Shown here: piece by piece, positions 17,415 through 33,312 of the stretch
Numbering within the stretch: position 1 is the first letter of the stretch
How the letters are laid out: the number at the start of each line of letters is the position of its first letter
Translations under genes and position numbers: made by a program
Notes under the pieces: model-generated
The model's input: the letters and a program-made list of their open reading frames with translations, nothing else
What the model was told of the DNA's origin: nothing
Databases searched by the model: none
DNA from: Anaerolineae bacterium
Lineage (GTDB): Bacteria; Chloroflexota; Anaerolineae; Aggregatilineales; Phototrophicaceae
Length of the DNA stretch: 64,000 nucleotides
Assembly (NCBI GenBank): GCA_022820125.1
Contig: JAJEGA010000013.1
Location: 1 to 64,000 of the forward strand
Direction of reading: 5' to 3'

Positions 17415-18209
17415 TTAACCCAGTAGCGGATTCAGATGCGTCGCCGCCAGATCGCCCGGCTGCGTACCCGGCAGCCAGTGGTCGCGGTCGCTGACGCGGT
17501 TCTTGTTGTCCAAATCGCTGACCCGCGTTCCATCAGCGAAGTAGATCACTGTCATCGCCGGACGCATACGATCGGAGAAATTCGGCGGCGCCGAGTGCAG
17601 CGTCCAGCCGCTGTGGAAGGTCGCCGCGCCCGCTTGCATCACACCCGCTTGCCGCAGCTTGAAGCCCTTGCGCTTGACAAAGGCGCGCAATTGCGCCTCC
17701 GACTCGTCCGAAATTGGAATATCGCCCAGGTAGCCTTCAGCATGCGAGCCGGAAGCAAAGCGCAGCGTGCCCATATCGGCAGTGATGTCGGCCAGGGTCA
17801 TCCACATGGTGATGGTGTTTTTGGTGGCCAGGGGCCAATAATGCTGATCCTGATGCCAGGGCGTGATGCCGCCGCCGGCCTCCTTGAAGAGCGCCTGGTC
17901 GTGATAGAGCCGGGCGCGTTCCACGCCCATCAGCCGCGCGGCGATGCCGGCGAAGCGCTTCGCCATGACGTATTCTTTCACTTTGGCGTTGTGTTCCCAC
18001 AGATTCGTCGTCTGCAAGAAGGCTTTGCCGTAGGTGTCGCGGTCTTGCAGGGCGCGCGTCTCCTTGTTGCGCGCGGCCACCGTCCGCTCAATCGCTTCTT
18101 TGTATGGCGGGATGTATTCCGCATCGAGCACCTTGTCCAGCAGAATATGACCATCGCGCTGGTATTGCGCGATCTGTTCGGCAGTTATCGGGTAAACGGC
18201 ATCCAGCAT
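17415..18209 (-). CDS. phytanoyl-CoA dioxygenase (PhyH) family protein, 264 residues
   Basis: This is a cytoplasmic Fe(II)/2-oxoglutarate-dependent oxygenase. The iron facial triad is seen as H119-x-D121 (WHQDQHYWPL) with the distal His in TLHSAPPN (about 205), followed by R for 2-oxoglutarate binding (RMRPAMTVIYF). The N-terminus YPITAEQIAQYQRDGHILLD is typical of the family. Chloroflexota and Poribacteria carry many such genes of unknown substrate. It lies in an operon with the longer PhyH gene upstream (18283) and the enolase-superfamily gene downstream (3-base gap), suggesting stepwise oxidation of an organic acid or sugar-derived compound. Confidence 0.85.
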   Translation of the reverse strand: MLDAVYPITAEQIAQYQRDGHILLDKVLDAEYIPPYKEAIERTVAARNKETRALQDRDTYGKAFLQTTNLWEHNAKVKEYVMAKRFAGIAARLMGVERARLYHDQALFKEAGGGITPWHQDQHYWPLATKNTITMWMTLADITADMGTLRFASGSHAEGYLGDIPISDESEAQLRAFVKRKGFKLRQAGVMQAGAATFHSGWTLHSAPPNFSDRMRPAMTVIYFADGTRVSDLDNKNRVSDRDHWLPGTQPGDLAATHLNPLLG

Positions 18210-18258
18210 CTTATGATTTTCCGTACTTTGGCACAGGTCGGCTCGGCATCCTCAAAAC

Positions 18259-18276
18259 CTCGGTGTACTCGGTGGT
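18259..18276. repeat. single 18-bp end of the 2998-3157 element
   Basis: CTCGGTGTACTCGGTGGT is identical to 3140-3157. It lies between the two PhyH genes, 6 bases before the stop of the longer one. Only one arm is present, so it is either a relic of an insertion or an independent use of the motif. Confidence 0.6.
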
Positions 18277-18282
18277 TAAAAA

Positions 18283-19317
18283 TCAGTGATCGTGCTCCAC
18301 ATCTTCGTGCGGCACCAGCACCATGAAACCGGCGCCGTCGCCCATCATCGATTTGACGCGATTGTCGTCAAAGCGCTCGCCGTAGAGCTCGGGCGCGTTG
18401 GCGGCGCAGAGGGCGCCGAACTTCGGCTGGGCGTAGGGCAGGTGGGTAGCGCCGCGCGCGAGAATATGCTGGTGATTGGCGGCGCCTGTGGCGTCGGCGC
18501 CTTCATAATGCGCGCGGTTGCCGCCGTGATCCCATGCCACGCGAGAACGGGCGTTGCAATAGTGGCTGACGAAAGCCCGCCGCGGACGCTCGGACTCGTT
18601 GCGATGCGAGCGATGAAAAACATGACCGCCAAAGAAGACCACATCCCCCGGCTCGGCATAGATCGGCGTCTCCTCCTCGTATCGCAGCGCCACCTGAGCC
18701 AGCGTGTTTGTCTCTACATCGGGATGGCTGACGCTCTTGACCGCTTCGATATCGCTGAGGATGGTATCGCCCTGCTGCGTCACGCCATCGCAATCGGGGT
18801 AGATCGGCTCGTGCTGGGAGCCCGGCGTCATCCAGAGGCAGCCATTCGCTTCGTCAGCCGGGTCAATCGCCATCCAGGCGCCGATTAAGGTATCGGGCTG
18901 CGTGGGGATATAATAAGAATCTTGATGAAATCCCTGCCCGCCTTGCCCCGGCTGCTTGAAGAAGAGCATCGTTTGCAGCGCCAGGATGTCAGGTCCGATC
19001 AGCGCCTCCAGCACATCGACGATTCGCGGATGCAGCAGGAAGCGCTCGGCGATTTCGCAGGTGCGGTGTGGCATGTGGATGCGGTCGTAGAAGCGGCGGC
19101 GTTCGGCTTCTGTCGCGTCTTCCGGCGGCGTTGGCAAGCCCGGCATGGCGCGCCGCCCCGCCATCATATCATCGGTGAAATCCGCCCATTCCCGCGCTTC
19201 TTCCGGCGCGACCAAGCCGCGTACGACCAGATAACCATCGCGGCGGAAGCTTCGGTATTCTTCCACCCGGACTTGATAGGGTTCGTGTATTCTTGTGGAC
19301 GCTTCTGCCAAGACCAT
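18283..19317 (-). CDS. phytanoyl-CoA dioxygenase (PhyH) family protein, 344 residues
   Basis: This is a Fe(II)/2-oxoglutarate oxygenase, longer than its neighbour. The family motifs are present: YRSFRRDGYLVVRGL at the N-terminus, FHQDSYYIPTQPDTLIGAW supplying H-x-D, CLWMTPGSQH, and HVFHRSHRNESERPRRAF with the distal His and the 2-oxoglutarate arginine. The start at 19317 is chosen because AGAGG lies about 8 bases upstream; the longer frame begins with a poor TTG at 19374. It is first in the minus-strand operon leading to 18209 and 17411. Insertions around residues 200-300 distinguish it from the 264-residue paralogue. The substrate is unknown. Confidence 0.85.
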   Translation of the reverse strand: MVLAEASTRIHEPYQVRVEEYRSFRRDGYLVVRGLVAPEEAREWADFTDDMMAGRRAMPGLPTPPEDATEAERRRFYDRIHMPHRTCEIAERFLLHPRIVDVLEALIGPDILALQTMLFFKQPGQGGQGFHQDSYYIPTQPDTLIGAWMAIDPADEANGCLWMTPGSQHEPIYPDCDGVTQQGDTILSDIEAVKSVSHPDVETNTLAQVALRYEEETPIYAEPGDVVFFGGHVFHRSHRNESERPRRAFVSHYCNARSRVAWDHGGNRAHYEGADATGAANHQHILARGATHLPYAQPKFGALCAANAPELYGERFDDNRVKSMMGDGAGFMVLVPHEDVEHDH

Positions 19318-19545
19318 GTCTCTTACCTCTACAGTCAGTTCTCGTTGGGCGGCCGACATTCGCACAGCTAACAATATATCGCGCAGCCTGCAAATTCGCG
19401 AGTGTTAGGTCGCTAGGGAAGGACTCAGTTTCTTCATGACAGAGACCCAAAGTTGTATTCGCAAAATGTTAGCAAACGCGAGTAAGTATTGTTGAGCGGT
19501 CGAAATTGCGGCGGGTGCAGATGTACTCAGACGTCATACTTTTCC

Positions 19546-19860
19546 CTATTCCTCGAAATATCGGCCCAAGTTGCTTCGGGCGAAGAGAATCCGCACAATA
19601 TAAATCTGGTCATCGACGTATTGGTAGACAAGGTAGTGCTGCTCTACTTTGACTAGGAGTAGATCATCTGGGATTTCATAATGCCGGCGTCCGATTCCTG
19701 GCATTGCCCGGACGCGTTGGATGCCCTCGGCCAGCTTGCTTACGTACGCGTCAACCTGCTCTTCGCCAAACCTATCGAAGGTGTAACGGCGAATATCCGC
19801 AAGGTCATTCCTAGCTTCCGGCGAAAACTTAGCAGAGGGTATCTGCGGGTTTCTGGTCAT
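19546..19860 (-). CDS. RelE/ParE-family toxin
   Basis: This 104-residue protein has the ParE/RelE plasmid-stabilisation fold: FSPEARNDLADIRRYTFDRFG at the N-terminal helices, GIGRRHYEIPDDLLLVKVEQHYLVYQY in the central sheet and IVRILFARSNLGRYF at the end. ParE-type members poison gyrase and RelE-type members cut mRNA; this one is closer to ParE by its missing RelE catalytic pattern. It overlaps the upstream antitoxin gene by 32 bases, as is typical for such pairs. Confidence 0.85.
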   Translation of the reverse strand: MTRNPQIPSAKFSPEARNDLADIRRYTFDRFGEEQVDAYVSKLAEGIQRVRAMPGIGRRHYEIPDDLLLVKVEQHYLVYQYVDDQIYIVRILFARSNLGRYFEE

Positions 19861-20128
19861 CGCTTATCGGAATGTTGGCTTCGTCTCGCTCTTGAGCCCA
19901 GCGCTTCGTATCTTCGAGAAATGTATCTGGATTGAAAGGAGTTCCTTCACCGTCCTTTAGGCGTTCTAGCGACCGGTGGCAACTGTCGCGAAATTCCGCT
20001 AGGTCGCGCTTGCGCTTCTCATCGTAAACCGCTACTCCGTTCAGCCATTCTCCTACTGAAACGTTGGCGGCTTGCGCTCTCTGCCGAGCCAACTCCCAAT
20101 CTTCCTCAACTGTTACGTTTGGCTGCAT
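19829..20128 (-). CDS. ParD-like antitoxin
   Basis: This 99-residue protein starts at ATG 20128 (GAGG 7 bases upstream). Residues 4-30 (VTVEEDWELARQRAQAANVSVGEWLNGVAV) look like a ribbon-helix-helix DNA-binding unit. The acidic C-terminal half (ERLKDGEGTPFNPDTFLED) would wrap the toxin. It precedes and overlaps the ParE-like gene. Autoregulation of the pair is expected from the family, but no operator was identified. Confidence 0.7.
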   Translation of the reverse strand: MQPNVTVEEDWELARQRAQAANVSVGEWLNGVAVYDEKRKRDLAEFRDSCHRSLERLKDGEGTPFNPDTFLEDTKRWAQERDEANIPISDDQKPADTLC

Positions 20129-20437
20129 GTGCGATCCTCTGCTATCATCGTCCGACACTTGACCATTATACCCGATGGTGGTCGCAACCTATCAACGAAT
20201 ACGAGACGCCTATATCTAAAGCATTGTATCTCAAAGAATCTTATCGATGCTAATGTCTGTTAATGTCCTGCAATTGATAGGACAAGGCGACTGTATAGCC
20301 ATTTTAACTCGGTGTATTTGATTGCCAATAGTTTTCGCGCGATTGTCTTGATGCGCCGCAAGCCTCGTTTTTGCGATTGCCGCTTAATCGCTATACTAGC
20401 GGCAGAACACGAGTGATCTGACAGAAAGGACCTCGAC
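20129..20437. other. divergent intergenic region of about 310 bases
   Basis: No gene is seen. It contains the aldo/keto reductase promoter (20368-20397) and a small hairpin TGTCCT/AGGACA (20264-20269 with 20279-20284). The AT-rich start near 20160 probably holds the antitoxin promoter on the minus strand, but no clear boxes were found. Confidence 0.4.
20368..20397 (+). promoter_or_regulatory. putative promoter for the aldo/keto reductase
   Basis: TTTTTG (20368-20373) is followed after 18 bases by TATACT (20392-20397). The AAAGGA ribosome site at 20425-20430 and ATG 20438 follow at normal distances. Confidence 0.5.
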
Positions 20438-22695: not shown

Positions 22696-22854
22696 CGCCG
22701 CACTCTGCTTTTGTCCCGCATTTTTAATTGTTCGTATTCTAGCCTTAATTGCCGGATAATTCATCTTTATCGCGCTAAGCCAAATTGGTAGCGGCGCATT
22801 GACAAAATGTGTTACCATTTAGGCGCAAGCTATAGACAGAGAAAAGAGGAGAAG

Positions 22855-24198
22855 ATGATTCGCAAATTGTGTCTCACCATGCTGTTCGCGTTATTGCTGG
22901 GGTTGCTGGCCGGGCTCGCCGTCGCGCAAGATTCCGTCAGCATCACCGTCCGCTGTAAAGCCAGCCCGCCGGAAGAGGACTGGCGCTGCAACAACTTCGC
23001 CGAAGTGGAAGCCGAAGTGGAAGCCGACCTCGGCATCGATATCGACCTGAACCTGATCCAGGACAACGCCGGTTGGGGCGATTACAAGAATGAATTCGTC
23101 TTGGCGTCGGAAGCTGGCGAAGCGCCTGACATCATTCTGTCCGGTCACGAAGATATTGGCGCCTGGGCGCCGGCCGGCTTCATCATCCCGCTGGATGATG
23201 TGATCCCCATGCACAGCGAATTTGACGACATCGTGCCGTCCTTGTGGGATTCGCATGGCTACGCGGGCCAGATATGGGGCATCCCGCAAGACGCCGAAGC
23301 GCGCCCGATATTCTACAGCAAGCTCTTGCTGCGTGACCTGGGCTGGAGCGAAGACGATATCGAGTCCTTGCCCGAACGCGTCGCCGCTGGCGAGTGGACC
23401 TTCGCCGATATGCTGGCGACCGCGGAAGCCGCCATTGACGAAGGCGTCATCGACGCCGGCAATGGCTGGTGGCATCGCCCGAGCAACGGACCCGACTTCC
23501 TCTATTACTACTTCGGTCACGGTGGCGAAGTCCTCGATATGGAAGGCAACCTCGTGGTCGATAGCGACGCCCTGGTCGCAACTTACGAGCTGTTGGGCGG
23601 CGCCGTCGCCTCTGGCGTGATGCGTTCCGATATTATCGGCGTCGACTGGAACGAAGTCTGGCATCCGACGGTAGCGCAAGCCGATACCGTGCTCTTCGCC
23701 GCTGGCGGAACCTGGAACTGGCCCAACTGGGCGATCAACTATGTCGCCGACAAGGGCGGCGATGAGTTCCTCTTCGAGAATATCGGCTTGACGCTGATCC
23801 CGGCTATGGCAACGGGCAACGCCATCACGCTGACGCACCCGCTGACTTACATGATCAGCAGCGGCAGCGAGAATCCGGATGTCGCCCTGGCGCTGATCGC
23901 CGCTATCACCACGCCCGAACACAACAACAAGCACGCCATCGACAGCTTCCACCTGGGCATCCTGAACGCGCAGTTGGAATCCGAAGCCTACGCCAATAAC
24001 CGCTTGCTGAGCAGCGCGCACTACATGCTCGACCACACCACGGCGCTGCCCAACCATCCGGGCTGGAACGCCTGGTCGAACGCCTACTTCCTCGGCATCC
24101 AAGCCGTCGAAACAGGTGAAGCGGACGCGGCCGGCGCCGCCGACATCGCCATCGCGCAGATGCAGAACGAATTGGGCGACGGCATCATGGTGCGCTAG
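22855..24198 (+). CDS. sugar or glycerol-phosphate ABC transporter substrate-binding protein (family 1)
   Basis: This 447-residue exported protein starts at ATG 22855 with a strong AGAGGAG site. The signal peptide (KLCLTMLFALLLGLLAGLAVAQ) lacks a lipobox. Typical family-1 segments are EADLGIDIDLNLIQDNAGWGDYKNEFV, EAPDIILSGHEDIGAWAPAG and VDWNEVWHPTVAQADTVLFAAGGTW. It begins an operon with two permeases, an ATPase and a glycerophosphodiester phosphodiesterase, the same gene content as ugpBAECQ of enterobacteria. A glycerol-3-phosphate, glycerophosphodiester or related polyol ligand is therefore the best guess, but this is context only. Confidence 0.87.
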   Translation: MIRKLCLTMLFALLLGLLAGLAVAQDSVSITVRCKASPPEEDWRCNNFAEVEAEVEADLGIDIDLNLIQDNAGWGDYKNEFVLASEAGEAPDIILSGHEDIGAWAPAGFIIPLDDVIPMHSEFDDIVPSLWDSHGYAGQIWGIPQDAEARPIFYSKLLLRDLGWSEDDIESLPERVAAGEWTFADMLATAEAAIDEGVIDAGNGWWHRPSNGPDFLYYYFGHGGEVLDMEGNLVVDSDALVATYELLGGAVASGVMRSDIIGVDWNEVWHPTVAQADTVLFAAGGTWNWPNWAINYVADKGGDEFLFENIGLTLIPAMATGNAITLTHPLTYMISSGSENPDVALALIAAITTPEHNNKHAIDSFHLGILNAQLESEAYANNRLLSSAHYMLDHTTALPNHPGWNAWSNAYFLGIQAVETGEADAAGAADIAIAQMQNELGDGIMVR

Positions 24199-24210
24199 AG
24201 CCTTACCATC

Positions 24211-24300
24211 TGTAGGGGCGTTTCGTTGAAACGCCCTCCCAATCGTGGAATCTATAGGGGCGACTGACGGTCAGTGTCCACGCGGCTCCGTGAGTCGCCC
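24211..24300. repeat. two GGGCG palindromes between binding protein and permease genes
   Basis: The first has the stem GGGCGTTTC/GAAACGCCC (24214-24236). The second is an expanded form, TATAGGGGCGACT...AGTCGCCC (24253-24300), with extra bases in the loop. They sit within the operon, where they could dampen expression of the permeases relative to the binding protein. Confidence 0.75.
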
Positions 24301-24318
24301 ACAAGCCAATCCCAACTC

Positions 24319-25302
24319 ATGTCCGAGCCCGTTGCCAAACCCAAATCATCAGCCGCCCTGGTGCAGAGCCGACGCAACGCCCTGAGATCCTACTTGGGCG
24401 CTTATGGCTTCATGGCGCCGGCCGGCGTCCTCGTCATCATTTTCTTCTTGATTCCGGTCGCCATCGTGCTCTACCTCAGCGTTACCAATCTGGCGAGTTC
24501 CAACTTCACCTCCGATCTCGCCAAGATGGAATTCATCGGTCTCAAGAATTATCAGACCCTGCTCAATGACCAGTTCGCGCGGAAAATTTTCTTCAACACG
24601 ATTTTTTATGTCCTCGTCACGCTCTCGTTATTCAACGTCTCGCTGGCGCTGATTGTCTCGCTGCTGACGACGCATATCGACCGCAGCGCCGGCTTCGTCT
24701 TCCGCGCCCTGTGGATTCTGCCGCGCATCACCTCGCCAGTTGTCTACATCTTGATTTGGAAGCGAATGATGGCGGAAGCGCCTTTCGGGATCCTCAACCA
24801 ATTCAACGAGTTCCTTGGCCAGCCCACTTATAATTATGTCGCGACCAATCCCTGGGTATTCGTGGTCGTGGTGAACGGCTTCATCGGCGTCTCTTTCGGC
24901 ATGATCATCTTCACCTCGGCTATCGAGTCGATCCCAAAAGATTTGCTCAACGCCTCGCTGGTTGATGGCTCGTCGCGGATGCAGCGCATTCGATACGTGA
25001 TCTTGCCGCTGATCCGCTGGCCCCTGCTCTTCGTGGTGACTTACCAGACCTTGTCCCTGTTGACCTCCTTCGTTGAGATCCAACTGTTGACCGACGGCGG
25101 TCCCGGTCTCTATCGCACCGAGGTCTGGTCGCTGACGGCTTATCATCGCGCGCTGTCCAATTATTTCGGCAACGCGCAATGGGGCTATGGCTCGGCTTTC
25201 GCTGTACTCCTGGTCATGATCGGCGTGGTGCTGGCTGTGATTTATATGCGCGTATTCCGCTTTGATGAACTGGTGGCTGAACCGCGGGTGGAGGCGCTAT
25301 GA
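24319..25302 (+). CDS. ABC transporter permease, MalF/UgpA-like
   Basis: This 327-residue inner-membrane protein has a basic cytoplasmic N-terminus, six hydrophobic segments, the EAA loop IPKDLLNASLVDGSSRMQRIRY and the MalF-type LLTDGGPGLYRTEVWSL motif. ATG 24319 is chosen; the frame extends upstream only through a GTG within a palindromic repeat. The stop overlaps the start of the PDZ-containing permease by 4 bases (ATGA). It forms the heterodimeric channel with that protein. Confidence 0.9.
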   Translation: MSEPVAKPKSSAALVQSRRNALRSYLGAYGFMAPAGVLVIIFFLIPVAIVLYLSVTNLASSNFTSDLAKMEFIGLKNYQTLLNDQFARKIFFNTIFYVLVTLSLFNVSLALIVSLLTTHIDRSAGFVFRALWILPRITSPVVYILIWKRMMAEAPFGILNQFNEFLGQPTYNYVATNPWVFVVVVNGFIGVSFGMIIFTSAIESIPKDLLNASLVDGSSRMQRIRYVILPLIRWPLLFVVTYQTLSLLTSFVEIQLLTDGGPGLYRTEVWSLTAYHRALSNYFGNAQWGYGSAFAVLLVMIGVVLAVIYMRVFRFDELVAEPRVEAL

Positions 25303-26876
25303 CGGCGCGCGAACCCTTGTTTGATTCAGCCAAGTCAAAAGCTGACGAAACGCCGCCTTCGTTTCAAGCGGATCTGATCGAAGGGCTGCGGCTCGGCTTT
25401 ATCAGCATTCTTATCGCGCTCGCCGCGGCCTTTTTCTTCAGCGGCATCGTGCATCCGCTCTTCGCCCTCGGCAGCGTCGAAGAGACGGTGATGGATGTGC
25501 TGACCCGTCTCTGCCTGCTGGCGCTGCCTTTCATCGCCTATATCGCGTCGGCCAGCGTCGCCCGCCGCTATACCGCGACGAACATCAGCCGGGCGCTGGG
25601 GCTGGCGTTGACTTGCGCGGTCATACTCTTTGCCGCCATATCGGCTGGCCACTATGCCCTCAATTACGGCGTCTTCGCCCCGCGGCCATCGCTGCAGATG
25701 ACGCTGAGCCAGACAGAGGCCGGCGTTCGCGTGGAGACCATCGCCGCCGGTGGCGCCGCCGACAAAGCCGAGATGCAGGTCGGCGATGTCATCACGGCGA
25801 TTCGGCGCGATGCGGTTGATCTTGAGGCTTTCAATAAACGCCTGAGCCAAGCAGAAGCGGGCGCGCCGCTGCGCCTTCGTTTCACGCGCGGCGCCGAGGA
25901 AATGCAAGAGACCGTCCGGGTGGCGCTGGTTTCCGACAAGCAGTTGAACCTGCTCTTGCCGGGCCTCCTCTTCGGGCTCGTCTTTACCGCCATCATTGTT
26001 TTTCTGCCCGGTCATTGGGCGCCGTACATCGCGCTGGTTGGGCTGCTGTCCCCCCTCATCGTCGGCTATTTCTGGGTCATTGTCGCCACGTTCTCGTACC
26101 GAACCGAAGGGCTCGTGCCACTTGACAGCAATGACAATTTTGGCGGCTTCACCTTAAAGAACTGGGAATCGATCTTCGCCGGCAATATCGCCGGCTTGGA
26201 GTTCAATATCTGGCCCATCCTGATGACCTCGCTGGCGATCGCTGTGTTGATGACCTTTGTCGTCTTGTTGGTATCGTCGATGGCTGGTTACGCCTTGTCG
26301 CGCATGCACTTCCCCGGGCGGCGCTTTTTCCTTTCATTCACTTTGATTCTTCATGGTTTCCCGGCAATCACCTTACTGATTCCCATCTTTTTTGTGCTGC
26401 TGCGGCTTGGGGATCTTCCCGTCATCGGCGACATGGTCGGCTTCAACACCATCGGCGGCATCGCCCTGGTTATGGTCGCCTTTCAACTGCCGCTCGGCGT
26501 CTGGCTGATGAAAGGCTTCTTCGACAATATCCCTTGGGACATGGAGCGTTCGGCGCTGATCGACGGCGCCTCTCGTTTTCGCACTTATTGGGAGATCCTG
26601 CTGCCGCAGATTCGCCCCGGTTTGCTGGCGCTGGGAATCTTCGCCTTTATTGGCGGCTGGAACGCCTATATCATCCCCGCCACCTATTCGATCGGATCGG
26701 GGCTCAGCAACCTGCCGGTCTTCTTGAACGAGTTGATTGACGAGACCGCGCCCGTCGACTGGAATCAGGTGGCGGCCGTCGGCTTATTCCAATTGATCCC
26801 GATTTTCATTTTCTTCATCTTCGCCCAGGAATATCTCTTGAATATCTACGCCGGCGGCACCAAGGGAAGTTCCTAA
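25299..26876 (+). CDS. ABC transporter permease, MalG/UgpE-like, with N-terminal PDZ domain
   Basis: 525 residues, almost twice the usual 280. Residues 240-525 are a standard MalG-type permease: helices, an F-G-GFTLKNWESIF segment, the MALSR-like GYALSRMHFPGR, and the EAA loop ERSALIDGASRFRTYWEILL (about 416-435). In front of it lie three extra membrane helices (about 30-56, 66-88 and 99-121), a PDZ domain (138-208: GVRVETIAAGGAADKAEMQ, GDVITAIRRDAV, LRLRFTRG) and a fourth extra helix (217-237). By topology the PDZ domain would face the outside. PDZ domains bind C-termini or extended peptides, so it may dock the binding protein or a protease. It overlaps the upstream permease gene (ATGA) and is followed 17 bases later by the ATPase gene. 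Confidence 0.88.
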   Translation: MTAREPLFDSAKSKADETPPSFQADLIEGLRLGFISILIALAAAFFFSGIVHPLFALGSVEETVMDVLTRLCLLALPFIAYIASASVARRYTATNISRALGLALTCAVILFAAISAGHYALNYGVFAPRPSLQMTLSQTEAGVRVETIAAGGAADKAEMQVGDVITAIRRDAVDLEAFNKRLSQAEAGAPLRLRFTRGAEEMQETVRVALVSDKQLNLLLPGLLFGLVFTAIIVFLPGHWAPYIALVGLLSPLIVGYFWVIVATFSYRTEGLVPLDSNDNFGGFTLKNWESIFAGNIAGLEFNIWPILMTSLAIAVLMTFVVLLVSSMAGYALSRMHFPGRRFFLSFTLILHGFPAITLLIPIFFVLLRLGDLPVIGDMVGFNTIGGIALVMVAFQLPLGVWLMKGFFDNIPWDMERSALIDGASRFRTYWEILLPQIRPGLLALGIFAFIGGWNAYIIPATYSIGSGLSNLPVFLNELIDETAPVDWNQVAAVGLFQLIPIFIFFIFAQEYLLNIYAGGTKGSS

Positions 26877-26893: not shown

Positions 26894-27976
26894 ATGGAAA
26901 TTCGAATCGACAATCTGACCAAGAAGTTTGGCGATGTGGTCGGCGTCGAAGACCTGACGCTGCATATCGAAGATGGCGAGTTTGTGGCTTTTCTCGGTCC
27001 CTCCGGCTGCGGCAAGACAACCACGTTGCTGACCCTCGCCGGCATCTACAAACCGACCGACGGGCTCATCCGCTTCGGCGATCGCGTGGTCAACACTGTG
27101 CAGCCGAAGGATCGCAACATCGGCATGGTCTTCCAGAGTTACGCCCTGTATCCGCACATGACGATCTTTCAAAACATCGCCTACCCGCTAAAGCTGAAGA
27201 AGGCGCCGAAAAACGTTCAGAACGAGCAAGTGCGGCAGGTCGCCAACGTCATGGGCATCGGCGAATTGCTCGATCGCCGGCCCGGGCAGCTATCCGGCGG
27301 GCAGCAGCAGCGAGTAGCGTTGGGACGCGCTTTGGTCAAAGAACCGGATGTGCTGCTCTTCGATGAGCCGCTCTCCAATCTTGACGCGCGCCTGCGGCTG
27401 ACCATGCGTGGGGAGATCAAGCATTTGCAGAAGAATCTTGGCATCACCTCGATTTACGTGACCCACGATCAGGTGGAAGCGATGACCATGGCTGACCGCA
27501 TCGCCGTGATGAACGGCGGGCATTTGCAGGCTTTTGACGCGCCGGATGAACTATACGACCGACCGAAGACGCGCTTCGTCGCCGGCTTCGTTGGCAACCC
27601 GCCGATGAATTTCCTCGATGTGGAAGTCTCGCCAGCCAACGGTCAGTTTCTGGCCCAAGCCGATTCGATTGAATTGCCGCTGGGCGTCGAACGGGGCGAA
27701 GCCTCCGCCGGGCACAGGGGCACGGTCGTCATGGGCATTCGGCCCGAAGATATTCAGATAGTCGACGAAGGCGATGTACGCGGCGAGATATTTGTGGTGG
27801 AGCCGCTCGGTCGGGAAGATCTCATCGATGTGCGCATCGGACCGCATAGTTTCATCTTGCTCGCCGATACCGAAAAGCAGCACCGCGCCGGCGAGCTGGT
27901 CTCGCTGAATTTCGATATGACGCAGGCGCAATTCTTCGATCCCCAAACTGAACGATCGCTGCTTTGGCATCAGTAA
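26894..27976 (+). CDS. ABC transporter ATP-binding protein, MalK/UgpC-like
   Basis: This 360-residue cytoplasmic ATPase powers the importer. Walker A is GPSGCGKT (35-42), Q-loop MVFQSY (Q81), signature LSGGQQQR (133-140), Walker B VLLFDEP with the D-loop SNLDAR, and switch H191 (VTHDQVEAMTMAD). A C-terminal TOBE/regulatory domain (about 235-360) contains VVMGIRPEDIQI and is typical of MalK-type subunits that bind regulators or serve several permeases. It is the only MalK-type gene in the window and could also serve the sugar permeases at 10121-11952. Confidence 0.93.
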   Translation: MEIRIDNLTKKFGDVVGVEDLTLHIEDGEFVAFLGPSGCGKTTTLLTLAGIYKPTDGLIRFGDRVVNTVQPKDRNIGMVFQSYALYPHMTIFQNIAYPLKLKKAPKNVQNEQVRQVANVMGIGELLDRRPGQLSGGQQQRVALGRALVKEPDVLLFDEPLSNLDARLRLTMRGEIKHLQKNLGITSIYVTHDQVEAMTMADRIAVMNGGHLQAFDAPDELYDRPKTRFVAGFVGNPPMNFLDVEVSPANGQFLAQADSIELPLGVERGEASAGHRGTVVMGIRPEDIQIVDEGDVRGEIFVVEPLGREDLIDVRIGPHSFILLADTEKQHRAGELVSLNFDMTQAQFFDPQTERSLLWHQ

Positions 27977-27984
27977 AGACGCTC

Positions 27985-29403
27985 ATGCTAGACGAGCAGC
28001 TTGAGAGCCTCCAGCCGCCGCCCGCCGATGCGGATCATACGCTTGCCCGGCGCTATGCTCCGCTCATTCGCTTTGACGCGCGCGAGCCGTTTTTTCCCTC
28101 GGTCGCCGGCTATAGCGTCATCCGCCGGAACTGCGCCTCGCCTTCGTTTCCGCGCGAGATCGACTTGCCGGAAAATGCCGCCTTCGCCATCGAATACGCG
28201 ATCTGGTGGGATTGGGACATCCAGCATCTCTATGAGTTGGAACATATTTGGCTTTATGTCGATAGCGGCGGCGATATCGTCGCTGCCGAGGCGAGCTGGC
28301 ACGGGCGCTATCATCAGATGCGGGACGAGAGCGGCTCGCTGCCCCTGGAGGGCTGTCGGCTCGCGCTATATTCAGAACCGGGCAAACATGCTTTCGCGCC
28401 ATCGCCGGCATGGCTGCTGGGCAGAAGAGCGAAGACCGCAGCCAGTTGCGGCGCCCGCGCCGGACGGATGGGCGTTCACGTCACGCCCTTATTTGACGGC
28501 GTCATCAACGACGCCACGCCACTTAACAATCGCCTGGTTCACACCTGGCTCGAGCGCCTGCGCTTTGAACCGTCCTTCGAGTTTTCCACAAGTTTCGACC
28601 TGCGGCGCGCCAGACTTGTTCCCTGGCATATTCTCTTTGAATGGATACCGCGGCGCGTCTCCAGCTGGCTTGGTCATCTAAGCGCGACAATCCCGCCTGA
28701 TCAGCGGCGCGTCTTGCGCATCGCCCATCGGGGCGCGTCAGCCTATGCCGCCGAAAACTCGCTGGCAGCTATTCGCGCGGCGGCAGAACTGGGCGCCGAC
28801 CTCGTCGAAATCGACATCCGCGCCACTGCCGATGAGGTCCCGGTCGTCATCCACGACAGCAGCCTCAAGCGCACGCACGGCTTGGACGGCGATGTTTCTG
28901 AATACACCATGAAGTCGCTGCGCCAAATGACAGCGGCAAAGAGCCCGGTCATCAGCTTTGAGGAAGCGGTGAAACATTGCCGCGAGCTGGGCTTGGGGCT
29001 CTATCTCGATATCAAGCGGCTCACGCCCGGCGCGGCGCGTTCCATGTTTGATTCGCTTGATCGCCACCACTATATGCGGAACACGATCTTCGGCGCCTTC
29101 CGCCCCGATTATCTCGCCGATATCAAGACGGCGCGCCCCGATGCCAAGACCTCCATTCTGTTCGGCGCGGTCGATATCGATCCGGTCAAGCTGGCGCTTT
29201 CCATTAATGCCGATTATGTGCATCCCTGCTGGGAAAACCGCGCGGAACAGCCGCACCGTCTGTTGAAGCCCGACTGGATTCGGGCGGTGCGGGAGGCGAA
29301 CCTGGGCATCGTCTGCTGGCATGAAGAACGCCCCGCGGAGATCGCCGCTTTGATGGCGCTGGGCGTCGATGCCATCTGCTCGGACAGACCTGAATTGCTG
29401 TAG
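27985..29403 (+). CDS. glycerophosphodiester phosphodiesterase with an extra N-terminal domain
   Basis: 472 residues. The C-terminal half (about 245-472) is a GDPD TIM barrel: HRGASAYAAENSLAA supplies H and R, LVEIDIRATADEVPVVIHD supplies E-x-D and H, and LYLDIK and ICSDRPELL close the barrel. It would cleave glycerophosphodiesters to glycerol-3-phosphate and an alcohol, like UgpQ. The first 235 residues are a separate domain (YAPLIRFDAREPFFP, AIEYAIWWDWDIQHLYELEH, YSEPGKHAFAP) that I cannot name; its aromatic and acidic character suggests binding or a second activity. No signal peptide is seen. ATG 27985 is preferred; TTG 27964 would overlap the ATPase gene. The position after the ATPase supports a Ugp-like pathway. 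Confidence 0.85.
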   Translation: MLDEQLESLQPPPADADHTLARRYAPLIRFDAREPFFPSVAGYSVIRRNCASPSFPREIDLPENAAFAIEYAIWWDWDIQHLYELEHIWLYVDSGGDIVAAEASWHGRYHQMRDESGSLPLEGCRLALYSEPGKHAFAPSPAWLLGRRAKTAASCGARAGRMGVHVTPLFDGVINDATPLNNRLVHTWLERLRFEPSFEFSTSFDLRRARLVPWHILFEWIPRRVSSWLGHLSATIPPDQRRVLRIAHRGASAYAAENSLAAIRAAAELGADLVEIDIRATADEVPVVIHDSSLKRTHGLDGDVSEYTMKSLRQMTAAKSPVISFEEAVKHCRELGLGLYLDIKRLTPGAARSMFDSLDRHHYMRNTIFGAFRPDYLADIKTARPDAKTSILFGAVDIDPVKLALSINADYVHPCWENRAEQPHRLLKPDWIRAVREANLGIVCWHEERPAEIAALMALGVDAICSDRPELL

Positions 29404-30555: not shown

Positions 30556-30667
30556 CGATCCCCCGCCAGATTGCGCTTTGCAGGCGCCTCCCGCCATTGC
30601 CATTCGACAGCCTCGCCACCATGTGTTAGATTCTGCTTGCGACTCAAGCAATGGCGAAACAAAAACT

Positions 30668-32905
30668 ATGGAACGCTCAAAACGATTCGACCTGCTGGCA
30701 AAGCGGGACATCAACAAAGAGACCTATGTCGAGCCCTGGCCCGAAGCCGGCTTGATCGTCGCCGACAGCCCCTACGATCCGCAGCCGAGCCTCACAATTG
30801 AGGACGGCACGGTCGTCGAAATGGATGGCGTTGTACGCCGCGACTTTGACGCGCTGGATATCTTTATCGCCTCGCAAGCGCTGGACCTGGAGACGGCGGA
30901 AGCGGCGATGGCGCTGCCATCCGAGGACTACGCCCGCATGTTGGCCGACATCAATGCGCCGCGCGAAGATATCGCCCGCTTGATCGCCGGCTGCAGCCCA
31001 GCCAAGCTGACTGACATCATCCGCCACATGAACGTGCTGGAGATGATGATGGGCTTGGCCAAGATGCGCATCAGACGAAGGCCAGCCAATCAAGCCCACG
31101 TCACCAACTGGCGCGAGCATCCGGCATTGCTGGCGGCGGACGCGGCAGAGGCGGCGCTGCGCGGTTTCGCCGAAGTGGAGACCACCGTCCGCGTCGCTCG
31201 CTTCGCCCCCTTCAACGCGCTCGCCATCCTGGTTGGCACGCAGACCGGGCGCGGCGGCGTGCTGACGCAATGCTCGGTGGAAGAAGCGCTGGGCTTGCGC
31301 CTGGCGATGAAAGGGCTGACAAGCTACGCCGAGACGCTCTCGGTTTATGGCACCGAGAAGACATTCGTCGATGGCGATGATACGCCTTGGTCGAAGGCTT
31401 TTCTCGCTTCCGCCTACGCCTCGCGCGGCGTCAAAATTCGTTTCACCTCCGGCACCGGCTCGGAAGCGCTGATGGGCCGCGCTGAGGGCAAATCGATGCT
31501 CTACCTGGAGGCGCGCTGCCTGCTGGTGGTCAAAGGCGCTGGCAGCCAGGGTGTGCAGAATGGTTCGATTTCCTGCATTGCCTTGCCGGAAGCCTTGCCC
31601 GGCGGCGTGCGCGCGGTGCTGGCGGAGAACCTGCTGGCATCCATGCTTGGCTTGGAAGTGGCGGCTGGCAATGATGCGCTGGCTTCGCATTCCAGCATTC
31701 GCAAGACGGCGAAGCTGATGCTGCAATTCATCCCGGGGGCGGATTTTATCTTCAGCGGTTACAGCGCCATCCCCAAGCGCGACAACCTCTTCGGCGGCGG
31801 CAATTTCGATGCCGAAGATTTTGATGACTACAACGTCTTGCAGCGCGATATGCAGATTGACGGCGGCGTCCGCCCGATTACCGAAGCCGAGGCGCTGTCG
31901 ATCCGGCGCAAGGGCGCGCGCGCCATACAAGCGGTCTACCGTGAACTGGGTTTGCCCGATATCACGGATGACGAAATCGACGCGGCCGCTGTGGCGCATG
32001 GCAGCGATGACATGCCCGCTCGCGATATCGTACCCGATCTCGAAGCGGCTGACGCCTTCATGGCTGGCGACGATGATTTCACCACCGTCATCCGCGCCTT
32101 AAATAAGTCTGGCTTCAGCGATGTCGCCGACAACATCCTGGAGATGGGGCGGCAGCGCGTCGCCGCCGATTACCTGCAGCCGTCGGCGATTTTCGACGCC
32201 GACTTCAAGGTGCAGAGCGCGATCAACGACGCCAATGATTACACTGGTCCTGGCAGCGGCTATCGCCCGAGCGGTGAGCGCTGGCGCGAGATGCAAGCCA
32301 TCCCGCAAGCCAAGTCGCCCGAAGGTTTTGTCGACCCGCATGTCGCCGAGCCATTGTCGCGCCTTGCCGAGATCGGTCCCGCGGCGGTGGGCAGCGGGCG
32401 CGAAGTCATCCTGGCGCTCGGTCCGGCTTTCGGCAGCGCGCTTGGGAAGACGATCGGCGGCTTGGAACATGAAGACGTGCTCGAAGCCATCCTCACCGGC
32501 GTCGCCTCCGAAGGCATGATCGCGCGTATCATCCGCGTTTATCATTCATCGGATTGCGCCGCCATCGGCTACGTCGGCGCCCGCCTCAGCGGCAGCGGCA
32601 TCGGCATTGGCTTGCAATCGCGCGGCACCGCCGTCATCCACCAGAAAGACCTGGCGCCCCTGAACAACCTGGAACTTTTCCCGCAATCCCCCAGTTTGAC
32701 GCTGGCCACCTACGAAGACATCGGCCGCAATGCCGCCCGTTATGCGATGGGCATAGCGACTGTCCCAGTCGCTGTTGAGATTGACAATGGCGCCCGCCTG
32801 CGCCTCATCGTGAAGACCGCGCTGCTGCATCGCCGGGAAACGGACGAAGTCTGCCCCGAGCGCCCGCCGCAAGAATTGCGCTTCGATTGGGAGCCCGAGT
32901 TTTGA
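30668..32905 (+). CDS. B12-dependent diol/glycerol dehydratase, fused large and medium subunits
   Basis: 745 residues. Residues 1 to about 535 match the PduC/DhaB large subunit throughout (RSKRFDLLAKRDIN, LTDIIRHMNVLEMMMGLAKMR, AHVTNWREHP, DGDDTPWSKAFLASAYASRG, GSEALMGRAEGKSMLYLEAR, DAEDFDDYNV). Residues about 560-745 match PduD/DhaB2 (VILALGPAFGSALGKTIGG, LSGSGIGIGLQSRGTAVIHQ, LNNLELFPQSPSLTL). The usual N-terminal extension of the medium subunit is absent at the junction. The enzyme would convert glycerol to 3-hydroxypropionaldehyde or 1,2-propanediol to propionaldehyde with adenosylcobalamin. The small subunit follows with a 4-base overlap. No reactivating factor or microcompartment shell genes are in the window. 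ATG 30668 is chosen by alignment to PduC; its ribosome site is weak. Confidence 0.92.
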   Translation: MERSKRFDLLAKRDINKETYVEPWPEAGLIVADSPYDPQPSLTIEDGTVVEMDGVVRRDFDALDIFIASQALDLETAEAAMALPSEDYARMLADINAPREDIARLIAGCSPAKLTDIIRHMNVLEMMMGLAKMRIRRRPANQAHVTNWREHPALLAADAAEAALRGFAEVETTVRVARFAPFNALAILVGTQTGRGGVLTQCSVEEALGLRLAMKGLTSYAETLSVYGTEKTFVDGDDTPWSKAFLASAYASRGVKIRFTSGTGSEALMGRAEGKSMLYLEARCLLVVKGAGSQGVQNGSISCIALPEALPGGVRAVLAENLLASMLGLEVAAGNDALASHSSIRKTAKLMLQFIPGADFIFSGYSAIPKRDNLFGGGNFDAEDFDDYNVLQRDMQIDGGVRPITEAEALSIRRKGARAIQAVYRELGLPDITDDEIDAAAVAHGSDDMPARDIVPDLEAADAFMAGDDDFTTVIRALNKSGFSDVADNILEMGRQRVAADYLQPSAIFDADFKVQSAINDANDYTGPGSGYRPSGERWREMQAIPQAKSPEGFVDPHVAEPLSRLAEIGPAAVGSGREVILALGPAFGSALGKTIGGLEHEDVLEAILTGVASEGMIARIIRVYHSSDCAAIGYVGARLSGSGIGIGLQSRGTAVIHQKDLAPLNNLELFPQSPSLTLATYEDIGRNAARYAMGIATVPVAVEIDNGARLRLIVKTALLHRRETDEVCPERPPQELRFDWEPEF

Positions 32906-33312
32906 CTGAAACGAAAGGCGAGTATCCGCTGCGCGACAGCGAAACCGACGCGCTCTTAACCCACAGCGGCCGTCCGCTAAGCGATATCAGCGCCGACGCC
33001 ATCGCGGCTGGCGACATCACCGGCGATGACCTGCGCACCCATGCCGATACCCTGCGGCGGCAAGCGGCGATCGCGCGCGAAGCCGGCTACCCGCAGCTGG
33101 CGGCAAACTTTTCGCGCGCGGCGGAGCTGACCGATGTGCCCAATGACGAGCTCCTCAAGATCTACGAAATGCTGCGCCCGGAGCGCGCCTCTTATGACGA
33201 GCTGACGCGTCTGGCGGATTACCTGGAAGCGACCTATGGCGCAAAAGAGAACGCCGCCTTCATCAAAGACGCCGCGGCGACTTACCGCGAGCGCAATCTG
33301 CTGCGCCGTTGA
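32902..33312 (+). CDS. diol/glycerol dehydratase small subunit
   Basis: This 136-residue PduE/DhaB3-like protein completes the dehydratase. Typical segments are YPLRDSETDALLTHSGRPLSDIS, an LRRQAAIAREAGYPQLAANFSRAAEL helix and VPNDELLKIYEMLRPERAS. It starts at TTG 32902, whose first two bases overlap the TGA of the fused subunit gene, with GGGAG 8 bases upstream. It is shorter at the N-terminus than PduE of enteric bacteria, which lacks its solubility- or shell-targeting extension here, in line with no microcompartment. Confidence 0.9.
   Translation: MTETKGEYPLRDSETDALLTHSGRPLSDISADAIAAGDITGDDLRTHADTLRRQAAIAREAGYPQLAANFSRAAELTDVPNDELLKIYEMLRPERASYDELTRLADYLEATYGAKENAAFIKDAAATYRERNLLRR

Follow-up and report, generated by a model that had tools for sequence, protein, structure and literature searches.

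Gene content of the locus

The window, here the whole 64,000-nucleotide stretch of an Anaerolineae genome that was analysed, encodes an ABC importer on its forward strand (Table 1). The genes follow one another as solute-binding protein, MalF-type permease, PDZ-bearing MalG-type permease and MalK-type ATPase, an order that is constant across the PDZ operons. The start of the MalG-type gene shares four bases (ATGA) with the end of the MalF-type gene upstream, and the 525 codons of the MalG-type gene are uninterrupted (zero internal stops). The encoded protein opens with three helices; an HtrA-type PDZ domain, one more helix and a whole MalG-type permease follow. No PDZ-specific extra gene was found in the operon and, likewise, no protease or stress gene is linked to it in the conserved neighbourhood.

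Table 1. Features of the importer operon and of its PDZ-bearing permease (positions in the window; residues are those of the fusion protein).
Feature	Position	Strand	Basis and remarks
Solute-binding protein (SBP_bac_1)	22807..24198	+	Pfam, signal inspection; Sec-type signal without lipobox
Partner permease, UgpA/MalF type	24274..25302	+	Pfam, NCBIfam; 342 aa, no large P2-type loop
PDZ-bearing MalG-type ABC permease	25299..26876	+	ORF, Pfam, AlphaFold2 (AF2); 525 aa
Extension helix 1	25362..25466	+	AF2 model, hydropathy; residues 22-56
Extension helix 2	25485..25571	+	AF2, hydropathy; residues 63-91; invariant E62 in loop before helix
Extension helix 3	25584..25661	+	AF2, hydropathy; residues 96-121
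HtrA-type PDZ domain, predicted extracytoplasmic	25683..25931	+	Pfam, structure match, AF2, conservation; residues 129-211
SLQM, inferred counterpart of PDZ carboxylate-binding loop	25689..25700	+	Register inferred from AF2 strands; residues 131-134
Extension helix 4	25944..26003	+	AF2, hydropathy; residues 216-235
MalG-type permease core	26019..26873	+	Pfam, NCBIfam, structure match; residues 241-525
EAA-loop region ERSALIDGASRFRTYWEILLPQIRP	26544..26618	+	Sequence and invariant columns
ATPase, UgpC/MalK type	26894..27976	+	Pfam, NCBIfam
Glycerophosphodiester phosphodiesterase (GDPD) in C-terminal half	27964..29403	+	Pfam, NCBIfam; overlaps ATPase gene

The overlap of the GDPD gene with the ATPase gene recalls the order of ugpBAECQ. 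Together with a dehydratase encoded downstream, this makes a glycerol-containing substrate plausible; judging from the neighbouring genes, the importer probably takes up a compound that contains glycerol, for example a glycerophosphodiester. Sponge Anaerolineae have been proposed, on genomic grounds, to import glycerol-3-phosphate (PMC6306507). The GDPD gene is often missing from the more distant PDZ operons, and the binding protein of the PDZ operon is only distantly MalE-like. The dehydratase gene (30578-33312, + strand) encodes a diol/glycerol dehydratase whose large and medium subunits are fused (PF02286, PF02288); a 141-aa ORF comes next, where a small subunit would be expected. No Pfam family matches the N-terminal 250 aa of the GDPD protein (27964-29403, + strand), and relatives of this protein as a whole adjoin some PDZ-less importers too.

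Architecture of the fusion protein

An earlier note, made from the letters alone, had proposed that helices, a PDZ domain, a further helix and a C-terminal MalG permease share one reading frame, and Pfam, AlphaFold2 and structural matches bear this out. The model of the fusion, built with 63 relatives, has a mean pLDDT of 86.5 and a pTM of 0.70, with the PDZ domain at about 95; in an earlier model the N-terminal module was confident and the permease part poor. Within the helix module, P53, E62, P77 and R89 are invariant or nearly so. Helices 1-4 are covered by none of the PDB matches listed, for which the module was searched as part of larger queries.

The permease part carries Pfam BPD_transp_1 at residues 326-513 (E 3.9e-14), and its best-ranking NCBIfam models are MalG, GlcU and UgpE, all below their own cut-offs. 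The core superposes on MalG and SugB (TM about 0.8 by target). D422, G423 and P440, in the EAA-type loop, are invariant in PDZ and PDZ-less sequences alike; in type I permeases, this loop region is where the ATPase makes contact. The BPD_transp_1 domain, the MalG fold, the EAA loop and the operon of binding protein, permeases and ATPase place the protein among type I importer permeases, in a transporter of the MalFGK2/UgpAEC kind. MalG, SugB and UgpE (CUT1-type) share this core, the fold, the operon partners and the EAA loop, but are about 280 aa long and have neither a PDZ domain nor extra N-terminal helices, unlike the 525-aa fusion. Extra soluble domains are rare on the permeases of type I ABC importers, which serve as a model transport machine, and the fusion apparently represents a variant with a new permease layout. 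The N-terminus of MalG lies inside the cell. Setting the helix count against this known topology, the N-terminus of the fusion would also be inside, and the PDZ domain would face outwards, on the side at which the binding protein docks.

The PDZ domain is recognized by Pfam PDZ_2 at residues 134-206 (28.1 bits in the full-length scan, for a gathering score of 27). Scanned alone, the region scores 33.4 bits (E 5.6e-8), and each of the 13 family members scanned has a PDZ_2 match (E 1.8e-12 for the best). Thus, the domain predicted earlier is confirmed, with its bounds shifted from about 138-208 to 129-211. It superposes on the HtrA2 PDZ domain 2pzd (Z 15.3, 1.1 Å over 80 residues), and HtrA2, DegQ and DegP domains are its structural matches (Z 13-15). 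Both PDZ domains of DegP/DegQ align with the profile of the family, and NCBIfam models of HtrA-type proteases match the PDZ part below their own cut-offs. Core residues G142, A154, G162, D163, R170, R194 and R197 are invariant among 21 divergent sequences.

These HtrA, DegP and DegQ domains are the closest by structure and share fold and sequence profile with the domain at this locus. Unlike those proteins, however, the fusion is membrane-embedded and has no protease domain: Pfam finds PDZ and permease domains only and no protease family, which separates it from HtrA proteases, and the HExxH zinc motif of site-2 proteases (TM-PDZ-TM) is absent from the translation. A further probable difference lies in the carboxylate-binding loop, which in canonical PDZ domains reads X-hydrophobic-Gly-hydrophobic. 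The putative counterpart here is SL(E/Q)(M/F), with Gly in one of 21 sequences and E/Q in the other 20. The near-absence of this Gly suggests a non-canonical binding mode in which the domain would not grip a free C-terminus. None of the eight PDZ_2 matches in the same genome lies on another importer permease. One of several PDZ proteins of this genome, L284 (G000:C66:2800-5500), is HtrA-like and has its PDZ domain in a 340-aa frame.

Distribution and evolution

Of 33 other congeners sampled, 27 proved to carry the fusion when searched with the N-terminal 294 residues. It was likewise present in several genera belonging to the same family and in two more families of the order. In all, at least three families of a single Anaerolineae order have it. 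The named collection yielded 40 PDZ-bearing loci, together with 40 close relatives that lack the module. Nearly all of the former are labelled Chloroflexota/Anaerolineae; one is labelled Bacteroidetes and is probably a mislabelled MAG. Outside the order, the full-length module was not found in the class and phylum samples. No stand-alone or otherwise fused four-helix module was detected in 396 class and 400 phylum genomes (E 1e-12), the only matches being confined to the PDZ part or the stretches close to it.

Because the same architecture recurs in dozens of independent genomes, chance and misassembly, the latter raised in the earlier note as a possible source of the fusion, are ruled out. 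The fusion is real and conserved. The earlier impression that its layout was new also holds up: no description was found in the open-access literature searched, and the PDZ-MalG fusion is apparently undescribed so far.

On a tree of the permease part only, the PDZ rows form a single clade (SH-aLRT 100) and need one change. The N-terminal PDZ module was gained once by a MalG-type subunit. Values of dN/dS within the genus are 0.19 (PDZ domain), 0.23 (helices 1-3) and 0.09 (permease), so that the PDZ domain is under purifying selection, and loss of the PDZ domain alone was not seen within the clade. No permease orthologue without PDZ was detected in 19 relatives that lack the module, at a threshold of E 1e-50 and in a search that had no internal positive control (PDZ-less orthologues elsewhere score far better, with E-values on another scale). 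The single clade, the dN/dS value and the result in these relatives indicate that the PDZ domain works as a part of the transporter. That it might instead be a functionless passenger of a neutral fusion, as orthologues elsewhere that manage without the module might suggest, is hardly credible given the purifying selection, the conserved core motifs and the lack of observed loss.

These orthologous operons without PDZ (loci L097-L136) occur in Chloroflexota, Actinomycetota and Spirochaetota. They have the same gene order and 50-60% permease identity, but their permeases are of about 300 aa, without the module, and their binding proteins are mostly lipoproteins.

Binding proteins and their anchoring

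The binding protein had been described earlier as lacking a lipid anchor, and this was correct, as its signal is of Sec type without a lipobox. Among 31 readable binding proteins of PDZ operons none has a lipobox. The same is true of 69 of the 70 further SBP_bac_1 proteins of the window genome; the sole flag lies past the likely signal cleavage site and is hence spurious. The counts are 0 of 30 in three other PDZ-carrying genomes and 25 of 30 in three PDZ-less Chloroflexota, lipoboxes having been called by a simple pattern and hydropathy rule rather than a trained predictor. Predicted soluble, unanchored binding proteins are thus a lineage-wide trait. Lost lipidation machinery is ruled out as the cause, since Lgt and LspA are encoded. 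The window genome (G000) and its relatives G042, G060 and G092 differ from the other Chloroflexota sampled in that nearly all of their SBP_bac_1 proteins lack a lipobox.

The earlier note had further suggested that the PDZ domain could tether the soluble binding protein. The lack of lipoboxes in PDZ operons and a weak signal of PDZ-binding protein coevolution (below) agree with this; free binding proteins throughout the genome and dozens of importers without PDZ do not. On its two other suggestions, that the domain senses envelope stress or recruits a protease, the results speak neither way. The C-terminus of the binding protein (NELGDxVIIR-like) was considered as a PDZ-specific ligand and rejected: it is equally conserved with and without PDZ, so nothing singles it out.

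Possible roles of the PDZ domain

We tentatively favour a role as a protein-docking module at the interface of binding protein and permease, though at somewhat less than an even chance. The domain would hold or orient the soluble binding protein itself or a second protein attached to it, and would probably use a non-canonical surface for this instead of gripping a free C-terminus. This would be comparable to the role of the unrelated P2 loop of MalF in E. coli MalFGK2, also an extracytoplasmic extra domain of an importer permease near the binding protein. P2, however, has another fold and lies between core helices of MalF, whereas the PDZ module is N-terminal to the MalG core. The reading as a whole, in which a once-acquired N-terminal module docks the binding protein at the permease for import of a glycerol-type cargo, is held with the same reserve. 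Its stronger form, a built-in receptor that docks the binding protein (or its partner) on MalG and gates transport, is rather doubtful. If true, it would be a mechanism of binding-protein delivery not described for ABC importers.

Distances between PDZ domains give a partial correlation of 0.26-0.32 with those of the binding proteins (permutation p about 0.01), 0.11-0.33 with MalF and values near zero or negative with MalK, but the data come from one origin and a small number of independent rows, and rate effects common to extracytoplasmic parts could explain the signal. With a single origin, every between-group correlation amounts to effectively one event. PDZ-binding protein coevolution is therefore weakly favoured, as a hint. 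Against docking, the C-terminus of the binding protein does not differ between systems with and without PDZ, and the genome encodes about 70 other unanchored binding proteins, yet no other permease with a PDZ domain.

There is a bacterial precedent in EpsC/GspC, whose non-protease envelope PDZ selects exported proteins through a folded domain (PMC12369372). GspC/EpsC of type II secretion is likewise membrane-anchored and part of a transport machine, but it belongs to a secretion apparatus, has another layout and includes no permease.

Two other roles appear unlikely, though not negligibly so. The domain may bind a protein in trans, whether an HtrA protease, another protein of the envelope or an exported protein that has misfolded; the state of the envelope would then regulate or remove the transporter. 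Its HtrA type would fit, as would the several other PDZ proteins of the genome, including the HtrA-like one on C66, but the conserved neighbourhood has no linked protease or stress gene, and in 20 of 21 sequences the putative carboxylate loop carries E/Q where Gly is usual, which argues against ordinary binding of C-terminal peptides. Alternatively, and with a comparably low probability, the four helices and PDZ may form a structural or oligomerisation part that packs on MalF/MalG or pairs one PDZ with another and stabilises the complex, with no peptide ligand. PDZ2 of DegP serves oligomer assembly, and the alignment of the family profile to both DegP/DegQ domains is consistent with such a part, as are the confidently predicted helices with their nearly invariant residues. 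However, once the rest of the operon is accounted for, distances between PDZ domains do not follow those between helices 1-4 (partial correlation about -0.1), and orthologues of 50-60% identity exist without the module.

Replacement of the lipid anchor as a specific adaptation is very unlikely. The contrast between 0 of 31 lipoboxes in PDZ operons and the lipoproteins that prevail in PDZ-less orthologous operons speaks for it, but nearly all binding proteins of the PDZ lineages lack a lipobox despite Lgt and LspA. As free binding proteins are lineage-wide and dozens of importers do without PDZ, this rationale loses most of its force.

A PDZ domain kept on MalG across an order is a natural experiment on the capture of binding proteins without a lipid anchor, and widens the range of envelope PDZ domains past proteases and secretion. 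The 50-60% identical orthologues without PDZ allow clean domain-swap tests.

Other observations

Two other unusual permeases are encoded in the same genome. In L275 (G000:C123:6900-10200), MalF- and MalG-type permeases are apparently fused in one long frame, and in L282 (G000:C94:1-3900) a long additional membrane region is inserted into a MalF-type permease close to the N-terminus. On the reverse strand of the window are two neighbouring phytanoyl-CoA dioxygenase (PhyH) genes (17415-19374) and a ParE-type toxin gene (19546-20158), which is overlapped by an upstream 109-aa ORF without a Pfam match that is likely the antitoxin.
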